64,000 bases of DNA, taken from Thermoplasmata archaeon. GTDB taxonomy: Archaea; Thermoplasmatota; Thermoplasmata; Lutacidiplasmatales; UBA184. Made by a program: the position numbers and the translations under genes. The notes beneath the pieces were generated by a model. The model did not search any database. It saw only the letters and a list, made by a program, of their open reading frames with translations, and was not told the origin of the DNA. Of this stretch, positions 9,801-43,364 are shown in pieces; position 1 is the stretch's first letter, and every line of letters starts with the position of its first letter. The DNA lies in NCBI GenBank assembly GCA_022750115.1, contig JAKIWI010000003.1, positions 36,927 through 100,926 on the forward strand, given 5' to 3'.

Positions 9801-10499
9801 TTATCCCTTGGCGAACGCGAAGAGCCCCGAGCCCGCACGCCCCGAAGTCGGCCGTCCCTCGTCCCGCGCCCACCGCGCGAGGGCCCGGCATTCCTCCCCC
9901 GGCGTCCCATGGTCGGAGATCGCCACCGCTCCGGTCGGCATGCGCGCTCCGATCCGGCGGAACTCCCCGCGCGCCGCACGGTCGTGGTGCGGGACGTCGT
10001 ACACGAACAGCCCGACTTCGTTCAGCTCCTCGGCGAGGAGGGGAAGGACGAGCGCCTTGTCGCCCACGCGAAGGTCCCACCGGGGGCGCAGCGAGGCGGG
10101 GACGGCCCAGCCCGGCCATCGACCCGCCGGCAACGACCACGACGATCGGGCACGATCATTCGACTTCGGTGCCACCGGACGTTTCGGGCGGTCGACGGAG
10201 TGGAGCGTTCCCTGCCGGTTTCGTTCGAGAGCCGCCAGCAGGTAGGCGGACGAGACGCCCGACGAGACTCCGACCTCGACGACGTGACGGGGACGCAACA
10301 GCCGCACGAGAGCGTACAGTTCGAGAGGGGCGGCGATCTCGCCGTACGATTCGCGTCCCTCCCGCGCGTGCTCGCGGGAGATGTGCCGGAACAGCCGCGC
10401 CTCCGCTCGAGCCTCGGCGACCGCCGCTTCCGACCTCACGGCCGGGGCGCCGGTGAGGGCCCGAACCCACGCACCGTCGGGGTCGGATTCGGCGTGCAT
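9801..10499 (-). CDS. Class I SAM-dependent methyltransferase (O-methyltransferase-like)
   Basis: The 232-residue protein has an N-terminal helical segment and then the SAM-binding strand-loop RHVVEVGVSSGVSSAYLLAAL around residue 75, as in Methyltransf_24/O-methyltransferase folds. A second acidic motif VGLFVYDVPHHD follows, where relatives have LIDGDHSY. The middle region (residues ~100-135) is arginine-rich and less conserved. It is 7 bases downstream of the phosphatase gene in the same direction, so probably co-transcribed. The substrate is unknown. Confidence 0.65.
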   Translation of the reverse strand: MHAESDPDGAWVRALTGAPAVRSEAAVAEARAEARLFRHISREHAREGRESYGEIAAPLELYALVRLLRPRHVVEVGVSSGVSSAYLLAALERNRQGTLHSVDRPKRPVAPKSNDRARSSWSLPAGRWPGWAVPASLRPRWDLRVGDKALVLPLLAEELNEVGLFVYDVPHHDRAARGEFRRIGARMPTGAVAISDHGTPGEECRALARWARDEGRPTSGRAGSGLFAFAKG

Positions 10500-10506
10500 C
10501 GGACGG

Positions 10507-10971
10507 TTACCGTCGAACCGGGGGCCGGTCGTCCGCGAGCCCGCTGACGTCGCCCGCCCACTCCTTCGCGGTCTCCACCTGGGGGCGGACGGCCCGGATG
10601 CGGTCGTAGGCGACTTCGAGGCTCACGCCCTCGTGACGGTGGAGGAACCAGGCGGCCGCGAGGGGACCGCGCCGAACCCCGTGCCCGCAGAAGAACAGGA
10701 CCGCTTCCTCCCGGCCCCGGGCGGTCTCCGCCAGGGTGGCGAGCCGGTCGAGGTTCGCCCGGATCGGTCGGTCGGCCACCGGATCGTAGATCGGGAGATG
10801 AGTCTCCGCCGGGATCGGTTCGTCGGGCGCCTCGTCGAGGACGCAGAATCGGGTTCCTGGGAAGTCGGTCGCGTCCTTCCAGCCGCCGACGAAGACGCCG
10901 GGGGCGACTTCGGAGGCGGTCTTCTTCGGCGGGCGTGAGCGGGATCGCGGGGGCGCGCGGTTCGTCGCCAT
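10507..10971 (-). CDS. Dual-specificity / tyrosine phosphatase-like protein
   Basis: A 154-residue protein with the CX5R phosphatase loop: Cys95-GHGVR-Arg101 in FFCGHGVRRG, followed by the helix LAAAWFLHRHEG. Upstream, VAPGVFVGGWKDA is the typical start of dual-specificity phosphatases. The usual His before the Cys is Phe here and the general-acid Asp is uncertain, so activity should not be taken for granted. The first 20 residues are basic and probably disordered. It forms a short operon with the methyltransferase. Confidence 0.7.
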   Translation of the reverse strand: MATNRAPPRSRSRPPKKTASEVAPGVFVGGWKDATDFPGTRFCVLDEAPDEPIPAETHLPIYDPVADRPIRANLDRLATLAETARGREEAVLFFCGHGVRRGPLAAAWFLHRHEGVSLEVAYDRIRAVRPQVETAKEWAGDVSGLADDRPPVRR

Positions 10972-11060
10972 GACCGGGGCAGCGGCCGGACCGTATTTCT
11001 AGGGTGGCGAGGCTGTACTATTTGGGACGCATCTTATCTTCGCGCCGCCGGGCGCGGAGC

Positions 11061-11068
11061 GATATAGG
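11061..11068 (+). promoter_or_regulatory. TATA-like box of the IS630-M29 fusion gene
   Basis: The run gatatagg is centred about 26 bases before the GTG at 11090, which supports that GTG as a leaderless start. Confidence 0.45.
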
Positions 11069-11089
11069 CGTCGGCGCCCTCGGCGTTCC

Positions 11090-13270
11090 GTGCGTCGCGC
11101 CCCGTCCGTGGTTCTCGGCCCCGAGGAGCGGGCCCGCCTGCGCCGCTGGAGCGCCGCGAGCGGGGGCGCCAGCGAACGGGCGTTCCGGGCGAGGATCGTG
11201 CTCCTCGCCGCCGAGGGGCGGCAGGATATCGAGATCGGCGTGGAGCTTCATCTCCATCGACTCACGGTCGCCCGCTGGCGGCAGCGGTTTCTCTCGCGAC
11301 GGATGCCGGGCCTCACGGAGAGGTCCCGCTCCCTGCGCCGCGGCGGGATCGCCCCGGAGCTCGTCGATCGGATCGTCCGGGCCGCGGGCGCTCCCCGCCC
11401 CGACGGCCGCCGCTGGACGACACGATCGCTCGCCCGCGCCCACGGCGTCAGCCACGCCACAGTCCATCGGCTCTGGAGTCTCCATGCGGTGCGACCGGCC
11501 GCCTTCGACACGTTCCCACGGCGCGCCGACCCGGCCCTGCCGGAGGCTCCGTGGGACGTCGTGGGAGTCTCGCTGAACGGCCGTTCGGCGGCGCTGGCGG
11601 TCACCCTGCTCCCGGTTCGCCCCGGGGAGACCTCCGTCGGTCGTTCGGTTGGACGTACCCCGCCCGCACGCCATGGGCCACCGTCGGAAATGGAACGGCC
11701 GCCCGGGGTGGAGGAGGCGGGCTCGGATCTCCTCGGTCCGTTCCTCGGCGTTCTCGCCTCCCGGGTCACTCCCCGCACCCGGGTGCAAGTCGTGGCCACC
11801 GCCCCTCTCGGCGAGACGGCGACCCTCGTCGCGCGCTGGCGGCTCCGTCACCCGAACATTATGGTCGAACTCGCACCGGACCCGGCGGGATGGCGTCGCC
11901 GTGCGGCCGAGCTGATCGGAGCGGTCGCTCGTCGCCCACGCGGGCAGGACCGGGGTCGCGGCCCGGCGGAAGCGGGCGGGGCGCTCGGCCGCATCCTCGC
12001 CGACTATCGGAGCGAGAGCGGGCCGTACGAATGGCTCGCGGGTCCCCGGGAGATCGCGGAGGGGGACGCCGTCTATCGGTTACGCTACGACCTTTCCGTG
12101 ACAGGTCACGCCGGGTTCAAACCCACCCCGCCGGTCCCCGATCCGGTGGCGCGCGCGGCGACCGGCGAGGAGTCGCTTCGGACCATGGCCCGGACCCTGG
12201 TGCGCCGCTACCTCCGGGTGAAGCCGGGCGAGCGGGTGACGATCGAGACGTGGACCGGAACACTCGGCGAGTCGAGCGCGATCGCCCTCGAGACCCTTCG
12301 GGCGGGCGGCCGCCCGATCGTCCTCTACCAAGACGAGCCCACCTACTGGGCCGCGACGACCGAAGTGCCCGCGCGCTTCCTCGCTCGCCTCGGCGAGCAC
12401 CAGAAGGCGGCGCTCGAACGGACCGATGTCTTCGTGAGCTTCTTCGGGCCCAGCGACCGCGAACGGTTCCACTCCCTGACGCCCGCGACGAGGTCCCGCC
12501 TCTCCGAGTACGGCGACGCCCTCTACCGGGCGGCGGCGCGATCCGGTGCGCGCGCGGTCCAGATGGCGATCGGCCGCGTGTCGCCCGCGTCCGCGAGGAT
12601 GTACGGCGTCGACACGGCCGAGTGGCGGGTGGAGCTCACCGAAGCGATGCGGGTCGACCCCCGGATCCTGGCCCGCCGTGCGAAGCGATTGACTCAGCGG
12701 CTCGCGAGCGGCGAGACCCTGACGATCCACCACGCGAACGGGACCCGCCTCGACCTCCGCCTGAACGGCCGTCGCCCCGCCGTCTCGGACGGCACGGTCC
12801 GCACGCCGGCGCGTGCGGGAGAATGGAACCTCGTCACCCTCCCCGCCGGGGTGGTGACGGTCGCGGTCGATGAGTCGGCCGGGGAGGGCGTGTTCCGCTC
12901 GAACCAACCGAGCTCGATCGGACTCTCGACGACGGTGGGACCGATGGCGGGGGGCCGGTGGACGTTTCGGAGCGGCCGGCTGGAACGGTTCGCCTTCGAC
13001 GTCGGGGACGAGCTGTTCCGGCAGAGCTACGAACGGGCCCCCGCCGGAAAAGACCGGCCCGCCGCGGTCTCGATCGGACTCAACGACCGGATCCGGATCT
13101 CGCCGCTCCTCGAGGATCAGGGCCTCGGCACCGTCTCCCTGAACATCGGGAGGAACGATTTCCTCGGAGGGAAGAACCGGGTCCCCTGGTGGGCCTGGCT
13201 GTTCCTGCGGGGCGCCGACCTGAGCGTGGACGGCGACGCCCTCCTGCGCCGCGGAGCTCTCGTCGAGTGA
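11090..13270 (+). CDS. IS630-like transposase body fused to M29 aminopeptidase-like domain, both lacking catalytic residues
   Basis: A 726-residue fusion in one uninterrupted frame. Residues 1-325 match IS630 transposases from end to end: two helix-turn-helix units (to ~135), the WDVVGVSLNGRSAALAV strand, the RVQVVATAP strand with the RWRLRHPNIMVEL helix-strand, and the C-terminal GPYEWLAGPREI. The DDE positions read Thr172, Thr237 and Ala273. Residues ~363-726 resemble M29 (aminopeptidase T/AmpS) proteins, beginning RTMARTLVRRYLRVKPGERV and ending LGTVSLNIGRNDFLGGKN. The family's metal-binding positions appear replaced: LPxGE reads LPAGV, GTxHxA reads GTVSLN, and HxD reads WAW. It therefore looks like a DNA-binding protein with a ligand- or peptide-binding domain rather than an enzyme; function is unknown. 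The PiT gene follows by 28 bases. Confidence 0.7.
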   Translation: MRRAPSVVLGPEERARLRRWSAASGGASERAFRARIVLLAAEGRQDIEIGVELHLHRLTVARWRQRFLSRRMPGLTERSRSLRRGGIAPELVDRIVRAAGAPRPDGRRWTTRSLARAHGVSHATVHRLWSLHAVRPAAFDTFPRRADPALPEAPWDVVGVSLNGRSAALAVTLLPVRPGETSVGRSVGRTPPARHGPPSEMERPPGVEEAGSDLLGPFLGVLASRVTPRTRVQVVATAPLGETATLVARWRLRHPNIMVELAPDPAGWRRRAAELIGAVARRPRGQDRGRGPAEAGGALGRILADYRSESGPYEWLAGPREIAEGDAVYRLRYDLSVTGHAGFKPTPPVPDPVARAATGEESLRTMARTLVRRYLRVKPGERVTIETWTGTLGESSAIALETLRAGGRPIVLYQDEPTYWAATTEVPARFLARLGEHQKAALERTDVFVSFFGPSDRERFHSLTPATRSRLSEYGDALYRAAARSGARAVQMAIGRVSPASARMYGVDTAEWRVELTEAMRVDPRILARRAKRLTQRLASGETLTIHHANGTRLDLRLNGRRPAVSDGTVRTPARAGEWNLVTLPAGVVTVAVDESAGEGVFRSNQPSSIGLSTTVGPMAGGRWTFRSGRLERFAFDVGDELFRQSYERAPAGKDRPAAVSIGLNDRIRISPLLEDQGLGTVSLNIGRNDFLGGKNRVPWWAWLFLRGADLSVDGDALLRRGALVE

Positions 13271-13298: not shown

Positions 13299-14267
13299 AT
13301 GATCGCGCTCGCCGTCGGGCTCCTCGTCGCCGCGGCGTTCGCGTTCGCCTACAGCATCGGGGCCCACTACACCGGCGCCTGCATGGGCATGCCCTACGCC
13401 GCTGGGGCGATCCGGGCGCGGAACGCGCTGCTCGTGATGGCGCCCCTGACGGTCGCGGGCGCGGTCCTCGCGAGCGAGGGCGTCGAGCAGACGGTCGGGC
13501 ACGGGCTGCTCGGGGCCGGGAACGTCAGCCTCGGGCTCGCCCTGGCCATCGTGACGAGCGCCCTCGTCCTGACGAGCGCGTTCAACTTCCTCACGATCCC
13601 GACCTCTACGATCCAGATCCTGGTGTTCTCGACGGTCGGCGCGGGGCTCGCCGACGGCGCCGCGGTCCATTGGACGACGGTGGACGGTTTGCTCGTGCTC
13701 TGGGCAGTGGCCCCCGTCGCGGCGTTCGCGCTCGGCTTCCTGTTCGTCCGGGCCTCGGACCGGCTCCGGCCCCGCGCCGCGACCCCCGGGCCGCTCGTGC
13801 GGAGCGCGGTCCTCGGACTGGTGTCGGTCGGGGCCGCGGCTTCGTTCGCGATGGGCGCCAATGACGTCGCGAACGCTTCCGGCGCCCTCGTGATGACCGG
13901 CCTCTTTACCCTCCCGATCGCGGCGCTGGTCGGAGGCATCGGACTCGCCCTGGGCGTACTGACCTGGGGGCGGCCCCTGCTCGAGCGGGTCGCCTACGGC
14001 GTCGTCGCCCTCGACCCTCGGATGGCAATCGGCGCCCAGCTCGCTCAGTCCTCGGTCATCCTGGTGGCGGTCGCGTTCGGAGCGTTCACGTCGATGAACC
14101 AGGCGCTGGTCGGGGCGATGATCGGCACCGGATTTGCGCGGGGCCGCTCGACCGTGCCGTGGAAGTCGATCCGGGACATCCTCGCCGGGTGGGCTGTCGG
14201 CCCGATCTCGGGGGCCGCGGTCGGCTTCGCCCTCACCGCGGGCCTCCGCTCCGTCGGAGCGATCTGA
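13299..14267 (+). CDS. pit: PiT-family inorganic phosphate transporter
   Basis: A 322-residue, roughly ten-helix permease that imports phosphate with a cation. The duplicated family signature is visible: near the N-terminus AYSIGAHYTGACMGMPYAAGAI (a variant of GANDVANA) and in the second half MGAMGANDVANASGALV-like sequence around residues 185-200. Length is short, as is usual for archaeal PiT. It lies 28 bases after the IS630-M29 fusion gene and may share its transcript. It gives the cell a low-affinity phosphate route besides Pst. Confidence 0.85.
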   Translation: MIALAVGLLVAAAFAFAYSIGAHYTGACMGMPYAAGAIRARNALLVMAPLTVAGAVLASEGVEQTVGHGLLGAGNVSLGLALAIVTSALVLTSAFNFLTIPTSTIQILVFSTVGAGLADGAAVHWTTVDGLLVLWAVAPVAAFALGFLFVRASDRLRPRAATPGPLVRSAVLGLVSVGAAASFAMGANDVANASGALVMTGLFTLPIAALVGGIGLALGVLTWGRPLLERVAYGVVALDPRMAIGAQLAQSSVILVAVAFGAFTSMNQALVGAMIGTGFARGRSTVPWKSIRDILAGWAVGPISGAAVGFALTAGLRSVGAI

Positions 14268-41253: not shown

Positions 41254-42225
41254 TCATATCTCATCCCCGCGGCGTCCGTGCGCCCCCCGGATCTCCCCGG
41301 ACGTGGCGGTCCACACGAACGTGGCGAGCGGGTCGCGATTGCGACGAATGTGCTCGCGAAGGGCGTACTTGAGACGGTGGGCGCTCGCCGACGCCCCGGG
41401 CCGGTCCTTCCGTCGGGAGAATCCGTCGATCAGACGGTCCATCAAGGTCAGCCCCACGCGATCTCGCGGCAGGGGATGGAGGTGGAAGCGGGGGTGACGA
41501 CTGAGCCAGTGGTCCACCTCGGGCGGAACGGGCGACATCCGGCTGTCGACGAGAAGATGGACCTCGAGGACCGACGGGGTCTCGCGGTCCATCATCTGGA
41601 GGAACGCGCGGAACTCCCGGCCTTGGTCAGCGGGGGGACGGATTCCCGAGGTGAGGAAACCGAGGGTGGGAGGGACGATCGAGCGCATCCGCTCATCCGT
41701 CGAGAACGCGACGGCCCGACCTGGAGGGTTGACGTAGAGGCCCACGAGGTCGGTCACCGTCTCCAGGAAGCCCATCCCCCGGTCCGAGCCCCGGGGCGGC
41801 CGACGCCTCGCACTGAGGAGCCCGTGAGTGTGGCAGATTCTCTGTACCGACGACTTGCTCATTCCGACACGCTGGGCGATGCCCCGGACCGAGGTCCGGC
41901 CGTCGGCCGAGCCTCGGACCTCCGAGACGGCGCTGAGCACCTCTTGGATCCGATCGGCGGCGATCGCCGGGGGGCGGCCCGACCGGGGGGCGTCGCGGGT
42001 GACGCCGGCGACCCCGTGGGCCAGAAATCTGTGGCGCCAGAGGGCGACCGTCACGGGATTCGTACCGAGCTCGCGTGCGATGACCGTATTCGGTGCCCCG
42101 TCCGAGGCCCGCAGGGCGATCCGAGCCCGCCGGGCCACCCGAGGGGGCGTGGACGGGGATTCGGCGAGGGAGAGCAGTTGGTGGCGTTGCTCCCAATGCA
42201 GCCTCACGGCGGCCGACTTCCGCAT
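41254..42225 (-). CDS. IS630-like transposase with shortened catalytic core (probably domesticated)
   Basis: A 323-residue protein homologous to IS630 transposases. Two helix-turn-helix units (ARELGTNPVTVALWRHRF; GIAQRVGMSKSSVQRICHTHG) precede an RNase H-like core with Asp177 (FSTDER), Asp227 (LLVDSR) and Asp263 in the place of the usual Glu (LTLMDRLIDGF). The stretch between the first two strands, which in IS630 holds ~45 residues ending in the FAALDVATG strand, is reduced to ~15. The same contraction is in the protein at 11.1 kb. No terminal inverted repeats are visible around it. ATG 42225 with a TATA box fits an expressed host gene. Function unknown, perhaps DNA binding. Confidence 0.75.
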   Translation of the reverse strand: MRKSAAVRLHWEQRHQLLSLAESPSTPPRVARRARIALRASDGAPNTVIARELGTNPVTVALWRHRFLAHGVAGVTRDAPRSGRPPAIAADRIQEVLSAVSEVRGSADGRTSVRGIAQRVGMSKSSVQRICHTHGLLSARRRPPRGSDRGMGFLETVTDLVGLYVNPPGRAVAFSTDERMRSIVPPTLGFLTSGIRPPADQGREFRAFLQMMDRETPSVLEVHLLVDSRMSPVPPEVDHWLSRHPRFHLHPLPRDRVGLTLMDRLIDGFSRRKDRPGASASAHRLKYALREHIRRNRDPLATFVWTATSGEIRGAHGRRGDEI

Positions 42226-42246
42226 GATCGACCGGATGTCGCAATC

Positions 42247-42260
42247 CCATAAAATATGTA
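42247..42260 (-). promoter_or_regulatory. TATA box of the IS630-like gene
   Basis: cccataaaatatgt is the most AT-rich promoter seen here. It is centred about 28 bases before ATG 42225, supporting a leaderless start and rejecting the longer upstream frame to 42447. Confidence 0.55.
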
Positions 42261-42428
42261 ACTTTTGGGTCACCGGGGCGGCTTCATAAGGCGAGGACGC
42301 CCACGATGACCCATGGGACGTGCTGGACCCGCAGGCCGACCTCGTCGGCCAGCGCCTAAGCCCGCGCCGAGCGCCGTCGCCGCTCGGGGCGGACACCGCC
42401 AGACTCGTCCTCAGGAGAAGTAGGTCGT

Positions 42429-43364
42429 ATGGATCCGCTCGCGTCACTCGGTCTCGGACTGCTCGCCTTGGTCGCCGCGCTCATCAACGGCGCGGTCGGC
42501 TACGGCTTTTCGTCGATCGTCACGCCGATCGCCATCCTATGGTACTCGAACAAGGTCCTCAACCCGGCCCTCGTCATCGTCGAGGTCGCGGTCAACAGCA
42601 CGCTACTGTTCCGGGAGCGCCGGTACATCCGCCAGACGTGGGCGCGCGCCCGGCCGCTCGTCTCGACCCTCTTCCCGGGAGTGCTCCTCGGCACCATCGG
42701 CCTCGCCTACCTCGCTGTGAACGACGTGAAGGTGATCGTCTACGCGACGCTCCTCCCGCTCGTCCTGTTTCAGCTGGTCGGATTCTACCGCCCCCTCAAG
42801 AACGAACGCCGGGGCGGGATGGCCATCGGGCCCGGCATCGGGTTCCTGTATGCGCTCACGACGATCTCGGGGCCTCCGCTCGCCTTGTTCCTCCGGAACC
42901 AGGGGATGTCGAAGAACGAGTTCCGGTGCACCATCGCCCAGATCCGGGTCGCCGAGTCGTCCTTGACCCTCGCCACCTACTTCGTCTTCAGCACCCTGTT
43001 CGGGTCGAACCTGATCACACTCCCCTCCCTGAGCCTTCTTCCGATCCTCGTGATCCCGGTGCTCATCGGGATCCCGGTCGGGACGCTGCTCCTGCGGGCG
43101 GTCAGCCCCGAGTTCTTCCGGCGGTTCGTGATGTCCGTCGACGCGATCCTCGTCTCGTACGGCCTCTCGAGGGTCCTCGTGTCCCTCAAGTGGGTCTCCA
43201 ACGAGGTCGCCTACCTCGCGTTCGCGGCGGCGTTCGCGGTCATCGCGGGCCTCAGCTGGTTCTCCCTCCGGGCCGTCAATCAAACGACGGAGCCGCCGGG
43301 GGAGCTCGAGCCTCCCGAGCCGCCGGCGCGGTGGACGCCCGGGGAGCCGGCGGGGCCGTCCTGA
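42429..43364 (+). CDS. TSUP-family permease (TauE/SafE sulfite exporter-like)
   Basis: A 311-residue permease of about eight helices. LALVAALINGAVGYGFSSIVTPI near the N-terminus is the TSUP signature. A second repeat (FLYALTTISGPPLALFLRNQGMSKNEFRCTI) begins around 138. Family members export sulfite or sulfoacetate, or take up organic sulfur. The last ~25 residues are Pro/Glu-rich and cytosolic. Together with the sulfite-oxidase-type enzyme at 34 kb it hints at oxidised sulfur handling. It follows the divergent IS630-like gene by 200 bases. Confidence 0.8.
   Translation: MDPLASLGLGLLALVAALINGAVGYGFSSIVTPIAILWYSNKVLNPALVIVEVAVNSTLLFRERRYIRQTWARARPLVSTLFPGVLLGTIGLAYLAVNDVKVIVYATLLPLVLFQLVGFYRPLKNERRGGMAIGPGIGFLYALTTISGPPLALFLRNQGMSKNEFRCTIAQIRVAESSLTLATYFVFSTLFGSNLITLPSLSLLPILVIPVLIGIPVGTLLLRAVSPEFFRRFVMSVDAILVSYGLSRVLVSLKWVSNEVAYLAFAAAFAVIAGLSWFSLRAVNQTTEPPGELEPPEPPARWTPGEPAGPS

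Follow-up and report, generated by a model that had tools for sequence, protein, structure and literature searches.

Organization of the locus

The window analysed here is a stretch of 64,000 nt from the genome of a Thermoplasmata archaeon of the order Lutacidiplasmatales (GenBank assembly GCA_022750115.1, contig JAKIWI010000003.1, positions 36,927 to 100,926). It contains a single open reading frame, running from a GTG at 11090 to the stop at 13270 and encoding 726 aa, in which a DNA-binding half derived from an IS630 transposase is followed by a half with the M29 aminopeptidase fold. The features of the locus, with the evidence for each, are as follows.

9801..10499, minus strand: Methyltransf_24 gene, downstream of the DSPc-like gene (Pfam; synteny)
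10507..10971, minus strand: divergent DSPc-like phosphatase gene, 154 aa (Pfam DSPc E 7.7e-6, below cut-off; synteny)
10972..11089, no strand: divergent intergenic region of 118 nt, common to the DSPc and fusion genes (a TATA-like box on each side)
11014..11039, plus strand: bipartite operator-like site (TGTACT-N13-CTTATCT in the window; consensus TGkAAC-N13-CnTATc)
11090..13270, plus strand: fusion gene, 726 aa, GTG start (IS630-derived DNA-binding half and metal-less M29-fold half)
11090..11494, plus strand: paired HTH region, residues 1-135, with HTH1 at about 10-75 and HTH2 at about 88-135 (Pfam HTH_23/HTH_32, AF2 helices, structural matches)
11537..11935, plus strand: degenerate core of DDE/RNase H type, residues 150-282 (L174, T237 and A273 stand at the triad positions)
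11615..11731, plus strand: variable low-confidence linker, residues 176-214 approximately (where the catalytic fold would have its beta2-beta3 part)
11957..12127, plus strand: C-terminal tail of IS630 type with hinge, residues 290-346 (a conserved LRYDLSVTGHPGFK-like motif at its end)
12167..13267, plus strand: metal-less M29-fold domain, residues 360-726 (profile match, AF2 model, structural matches, motif alignment)
13299..14267, plus strand: PiT (PHO4) transporter gene (Pfam PHO4 5.5e-38; 28 nt past the fusion stop)

The start codon is backed by the motif (M/V)RxAxx.LSPEER, which is aligned at the equivalent position across the orthologs. The frame is uninterrupted, as an earlier note on this DNA had claimed, and is likewise single in 13 distinct full-length orthologs, a conservation that, judged from the sequences, is far beyond what chance would give. 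A phmmer search of the whole protein against the PDB returned nothing useful.

The transposase-derived half

The profiles HTH_23 (residues 33-75) and HTH_32 (residues 59-129) both score above their Pfam cut-offs, which identifies a DNA-binding region of the IS630-transposase type. The NCBIfam IS630 model covers residues 33-157 with 46.7 bits, below the cut-off of 100 for an equivalog, and residues 150-346 align with the remainder of an IS630 transposase. The AF2 model of this half (pLDDT 79.3) resembles the DNA-binding regions of SETMAR, PAX6, Mos1 and Tc3 with Z 5-6 (VIA-align), a level shared with many other HTH proteins; these weak but sensible paired-domain matches support the HTH pair and nothing beyond it. 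A Foldseek search with the same half gave zero matches below E 0.001.

In an alignment with intact IS630 transposases from the genus, Leu174, Thr237 and Ala273 occupy the DDE triad positions, and D, D and E are found together in none of the orthologs, so that the protein lacks the catalytic triad of an IS630 transposase. The earlier note had read these positions as Thr, Thr and Ala, which holds for the second and third but is wrong for the first. Nor is the IS630 body of full length, as had been supposed, because the stretch between the first and second triad positions, from which beta2-beta3 of the RNase H fold is formed, has been swapped for the variable linker, which is modelled with a pLDDT of about 35-40 at residues 181-211 and whose residues 179-213 have 38% gaps among the orthologs. 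Within the DDE core (150-282), 2 of the 133 residues are invariant among the 13 orthologs.

Degenerate IS630-like proteins also occur as standalone genes. One of them, the second degenerate IS630-like gene of the window, lies at 41254-42447 on the minus strand and has D, D and D as its triad, with a core of reduced length; its nearest sampled relative is L063 (G016), and matches of 330-360 aa, similar in length, are present in many genomes of the genus. Three more clades were found (L061/L062/L069/L071/L072; L065/L073/L075/L076; L063). L066, L069 and L072 have a common upstream neighbour ending in FERRALATGSIARF or similar, and an operator-like TGGAAC-N13-CTTTATC lies at about -75 from the start of L075. 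The standalone clades suggest repeated domestication in the genus.

The M29-fold half

Pfam Peptidase_M29 matches residues 360-642 with E 2.5e-4 and 20.4 bits, below the gathering cut-off of 27. The AF2 model of this half (pLDDT 89.6) has the M29 fold, matching five M29 entries at Z 25.6-29.9; the values are Z 26-30 for PepS, AmpT, AmpS and NicX, and about 14 for CgnE and CgnB. The domain assignments of the earlier note are thus borne out for both halves, by profiles above cut-off for the first and by structural matches together with a profile below cut-off for the second.

The ligand motifs of M29 enzymes are altered throughout, with LPxGE reading LPAGV, the GE before IGxN reading AV, GTxH reading GTVS and HxD reading W.W, and all of the metal ligands E, E, H, H and D are replaced. 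Structural and sequence comparison therefore agrees with the earlier note, which had reported the loss of LPxGE, GTxHxA and HxD, and also with its broader statement that the HTH was kept while both active sites were lost: the paired HTH is present, and the DDE and M29 sites are gone in all orthologs. The aligned paralogs in the genus also lack the metal ligands, except L035, which has the first E (LPAGE), and the ligands are intact in relatives from the same class (L140-L149). The former H.D pair is now an invariant W.W in the fusion orthologs, and invariant positions are concentrated near the former active site (24/58 vs 72/309, p 0.006).

Seven standalone paralogs of the metal-less domain (L002-L008) are encoded in the window's genome (G000, contigs C5, C10, C18 and C19). 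From their sequences, the standalone proteins are a lineage-specific family in which the M29 metal ligands are replaced.

The M29-like half might instead be an active enzyme with a chemistry other than that of M29, the HTH half being either a tether to DNA or vestigial. In keeping with such an enzyme, the genus has up to about ten M29-like matches per genome, nearly all without a transposase half, the paralogs retain motifs such as DExTYW and GPxDxxR, and NicX is a case of the same fold hosting other chemistry. However, in both the fusion and the paralogs, other residues stand where the M29 type and the NicX type have their metal ligands: at the place aligned with the H..D pair of NicX-type dioxygenases (the CHLD position of NicX, which we take to be H318/D320), the fusion has W..W. 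Together with the constraint that still acts on the HTHs and the dedicated DNA site at the locus, both described below, this makes an active enzyme unlikely.

Distribution, origin and constraint

A whole-genome search detected the full-length fusion in further genomes of the genus, and a search of named genomes gave 13 loci, all in archaeal MAGs filed under Thermoplasmata or Euryarchaeota, one of which is Candidatus Lutacidiplasma silvani. The 13 distinct full-length copies considered here include that of the window and leave out L077, which is near-identical to it; an extra copy, split across contig ends in G054 (L060 and L021), is outside the 13. The hosts are Lutacidiplasma-type Thermoplasmata, which are soil archaea, and of the genomes searched, none beyond the genus had a full-length fusion.

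Identity among the orthologs is 46-55% for the whole protein, 35-47% for the N-half and 56-65% for the C-half. Because the fusion copies form one clade both in the tree of N-halves (support 100/100, with the G054 fragment within it) and in that of C-halves (support 90/90), a single fusion event is indicated. The fusion is no one-off, since its frame is intact in 13 distinct species-level loci of one origin.

The pN/pS values, which are rough because dS is near saturation, are 0.55 and 0.60 for the two HTHs, 0.48 for the M29-like half, 0.61 for the IS630 tail and hinge (290-346), 0.78-0.83 for the DDE remnant and 0.99 for the linker (179-213). By this measure the HTHs and the M29-like half are constrained, the surviving DDE core is weakly constrained and the linker drifts. 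This is thus a transposase that shares one frame with a host domain and is maintained under selection, as in SETMAR.

The high G+C content, which produces many overlapping long frames here, might suggest a decaying gene or a gene-calling accident in a genome with many spurious long frames. This reading is refuted by the conservation data and has practically no probability left: the frame is kept in 13 divergent orthologs of 719-745 aa, the domains have pN/pS values of 0.48-0.60, and genuine decay looks different, as in L110 (G050), a shortened fusion gene with internal deletions that lies between DSPc and PiT and is not accompanied by the operator-like motif.

Gene neighbourhood

The DSPc gene is divergent from and directly upstream of the fusion at 13 of 13 loci, and is followed by the Methyltransf_24 gene in 8 of them. 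The PiT gene is 3' of the fusion in the window and at 8 other loci; L088 and G054 have it on the other arm, and no PiT gene was detected close to the fusion of L082 or L085. Because DSPc is always present and PiT is present only in most loci, the better candidate for a target is the divergent DSPc gene. The DSPc-methyltransferase pair is conserved with and without the fusion, being fusion-less in many genomes, and in L108 the PiT and DSPc genes are directly divergent. By sequence comparison, these arrangements indicate a DSPc/PiT locus that already existed and that either gained the fusion or lost it. The DSPc-like protein of the window retains the C-x5-R loop (CGHGVRR) despite its Pfam score below cut-off.

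A bipartite operator-like site and the ends of IS630 elements

Upstream of the fusion start, every distinct locus contains TGkAAC-N13-CnTATc (positions -67 to -80), flanked by two TATA-like boxes. The alignment of these sites scores 142, compared with 118.6 +/- 1.6 in dinucleotide shuffles. With a site model at E<=3, this locus is the sole match genome-wide in 8 of 12 fusion genomes, no second target site being found in those eight, and the model is too insensitive at that threshold for the genomes' own sites in the remaining 4, that of the window included; because the model was built from the sites that it then finds, only the absence of sites elsewhere and the match to IS630 TIRs are independent. 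The model has no matches in 18 fusion-less DSPc loci. The regulon may be restricted to the DSPc-fusion locus. A search of the window's genome with the IUPAC consensus allowing one mismatch was rejected as uninformative, giving 8 matches against 8 in the backward control and missing the window's own site, which has two mismatches.

The intact IS630 elements of the genus have CTAGTG at both termini, and their right end overlaps the stop codon; a scan for terminal repeats with 20-mer inverted repeats detected none in these elements because of this overlap. In 15 of 15 IS630 ends tested, from two subfamilies, the best match to the site is at an offset of 9 nt from the tip and has the identical 13-nt spacer, as in L169 (CTAGTGTGC-TGTACC-AGCCAGACCTAAG-CTTATCC). 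None of 5000 joint column permutations was as good for the 15 ends, p is 0.0007 for each subfamily separately and 0.0002 for the ten right ends alone, and reverse-complement and backward controls are far lower; ends inside one subfamily are related, so these p values overstate independence, but the left and right ends of the two subfamilies agree. An earlier comparison of left ends with a flexible spacer had given p 0.005-0.02, and the right ends then revealed the fixed spacing. Upstream, the fusion locus has one inner site of the TIR type, and no CTAG tip lies at the proper distance from it; CTAG tips are absent at the fusion loci in general, as would be expected if binding alone had been retained.

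Alternatively, the motif could belong to the normal promoter of the DSPc gene or of the fusion gene, without being bound by the fusion protein. Its CnTATc part is TATA-like, and left IS630 ends put TTATA close to the transposase start. Nevertheless, separate TATA-like boxes lie on either side of the motif, and the best matches are the right IS630 ends, which need no transposase promoter. Because the model matches only this place in 8 of 12 genomes and nothing in the 18 fusion-less DSPc promoters, a general promoter element or an element of the DSPc promoter is unlikely, and the promoter reading as a whole, for either gene, is improbable.

The resemblance of the site to the ends of intact IS630 elements would also fit a protein that represses resident IS630, occupying the TIRs and blocking transposition, with the site in its own promoter serving autoregulation only. 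However, about 4 of 14 fusion genomes carry an IS630 gene of the intact type (E<=1e-70), compared with 16 of 64 other genomes, so that such genes are not associated with the fusion (Fisher p 0.75), and such a role would leave the M29-like half and the conserved DSPc/PiT neighbourhood unexplained. Repression of IS630 is therefore improbable.

A model for the fusion protein

The fusion protein, with its catalytically dead IS630 half, is likely to be a domesticated transposase serving as a one-component transcription regulator with a TIR-type operator and a metal-less M29-fold sensor; the locus has an architecture of DNA-binding and M29-fold parts, a divergent arrangement and a conserved site. 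The two HTH domains would bind TGkAAC-N13-CnTATc between the divergent promoters and thereby govern the DSPc-methyltransferase genes on one side and, on the other, the fusion gene itself, followed at most loci by PiT. In the M29-fold half, the groove of the former active site would accommodate a small molecule or a peptide, and occupancy by this ligand would alter either the binding of DNA or the protein's contact with the transcription apparatus. Because the site is upstream of both TATA-like boxes, activation or looping is no poorer a fit than steric repression.

The idea of a domesticated sensor, put forward in the earlier note, is supported by the conserved fusion of one origin, the dead active sites, the constraint, the neighbourhood, the locus-specific motif and the match of this motif to IS630 ends. 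From these observations we infer that the fusion protein would bind the motif, that the M29-like half would sense a ligand, and that control may be by repression or by activation. As to origin, we lean slightly towards a scenario in which a ligand-controlled regulator arose when an ancestral DDE transposase was captured with its own TIR as operator and was fused to a sensor of metal-less M29 fold.

Comparison with known systems

SETMAR (Metnase) is an Hsmar1 mariner transposase joined to a SET domain and is reported to retain ancestral TIR binding (PMC9062482); it also retains a DDN site with residual cleavage (PMC4036204). The fusion resembles it as a domesticated transposase of the IS630-Tc1-mariner group in one frame with a non-transposon domain, and its N-half matches the SETMAR DNA-binding domain (7s03) at Z 6.2. 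In contrast, SETMAR is eukaryotic, has a SET methyltransferase partner and keeps DDN, whereas the fusion is archaeal, has a metal-less M29-fold partner and lacks the triad and part of the fold. The bipartite paired-type HTH of PAX proteins is related to Tc1/mariner transposases. PAX proteins use a paired HTH in a transcription role, and the N-half matches PAX6 (6pax) and PAX5 (1k78) at Z 5.7-6.1, but these are animal factors without an M29-like domain or a retained DDE remnant. By analogy, the fusion would work like SETMAR and PAX, yet it is a member of neither.

The IS630 transposases of the genus (L064, L068, L067 and L070) share with the fusion the HTH layout, the C-terminal tail and about 27-32% identity, and their sub-terminal TIR sequence matches the operator-like site; however, they have D-D-E, CTAG-ended TIRs and a length of 358-363 aa, none of which is found in the fusion. 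The M29 peptidases AmpS, AmpT and PepS share the fold (4icr, Z 29.9; 2ayi, Z 28.8 over 350 residues) but differ in that all of their metal ligands are replaced in the fusion, and identity is 16-18%. On the features tested, the fusion belongs neither to the active IS630 transposases nor to the M29 peptidases.

CgnE of crocagin biosynthesis is an M29-derived peptide-binding protein that has lost its Zn site, and thus a precedent for a metal-less M29 fold in binding (PMC10070186). CgnB and CgnE share the M29-like fold with the fusion, but have no DNA-binding part and belong to bacterial natural-product clusters. TldR proteins are nuclease-dead transcription factors derived from TnpB (PMC13418256) and are, like the proposed regulator, prokaryotic transcription regulators from a transposon-related enzyme, but they come from RNA-guided TnpB and have neither a DDE transposase nor a fused sensor domain.

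Implications

In animals, there are well-documented cases of transposases that were captured and became transcription factors. No case of capture of a DDE transposase in archaea was found in the open-access literature searched, and the paper naming the order Lutacidiplasmatales does not mention transposases. The long-kept fusion of a dead transposase is probably a gene switch that reads an old transposon end in front of its own gene. If so, a single locus would display the whole path from a dead transposase, through conversion of a TIR into an operator of fixed spacing and acquisition of a sensory domain, to a stable neighbourhood, and also a lineage in which gene and operator have both decayed. 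The fusion would be an archaeal counterpart of PAX and SETMAR, amid several apparent domestications of IS630 and an expanded family of metal-less M29-like proteins, and the locus would offer a ready test of ligand sensing by a metal-less M29 fold.
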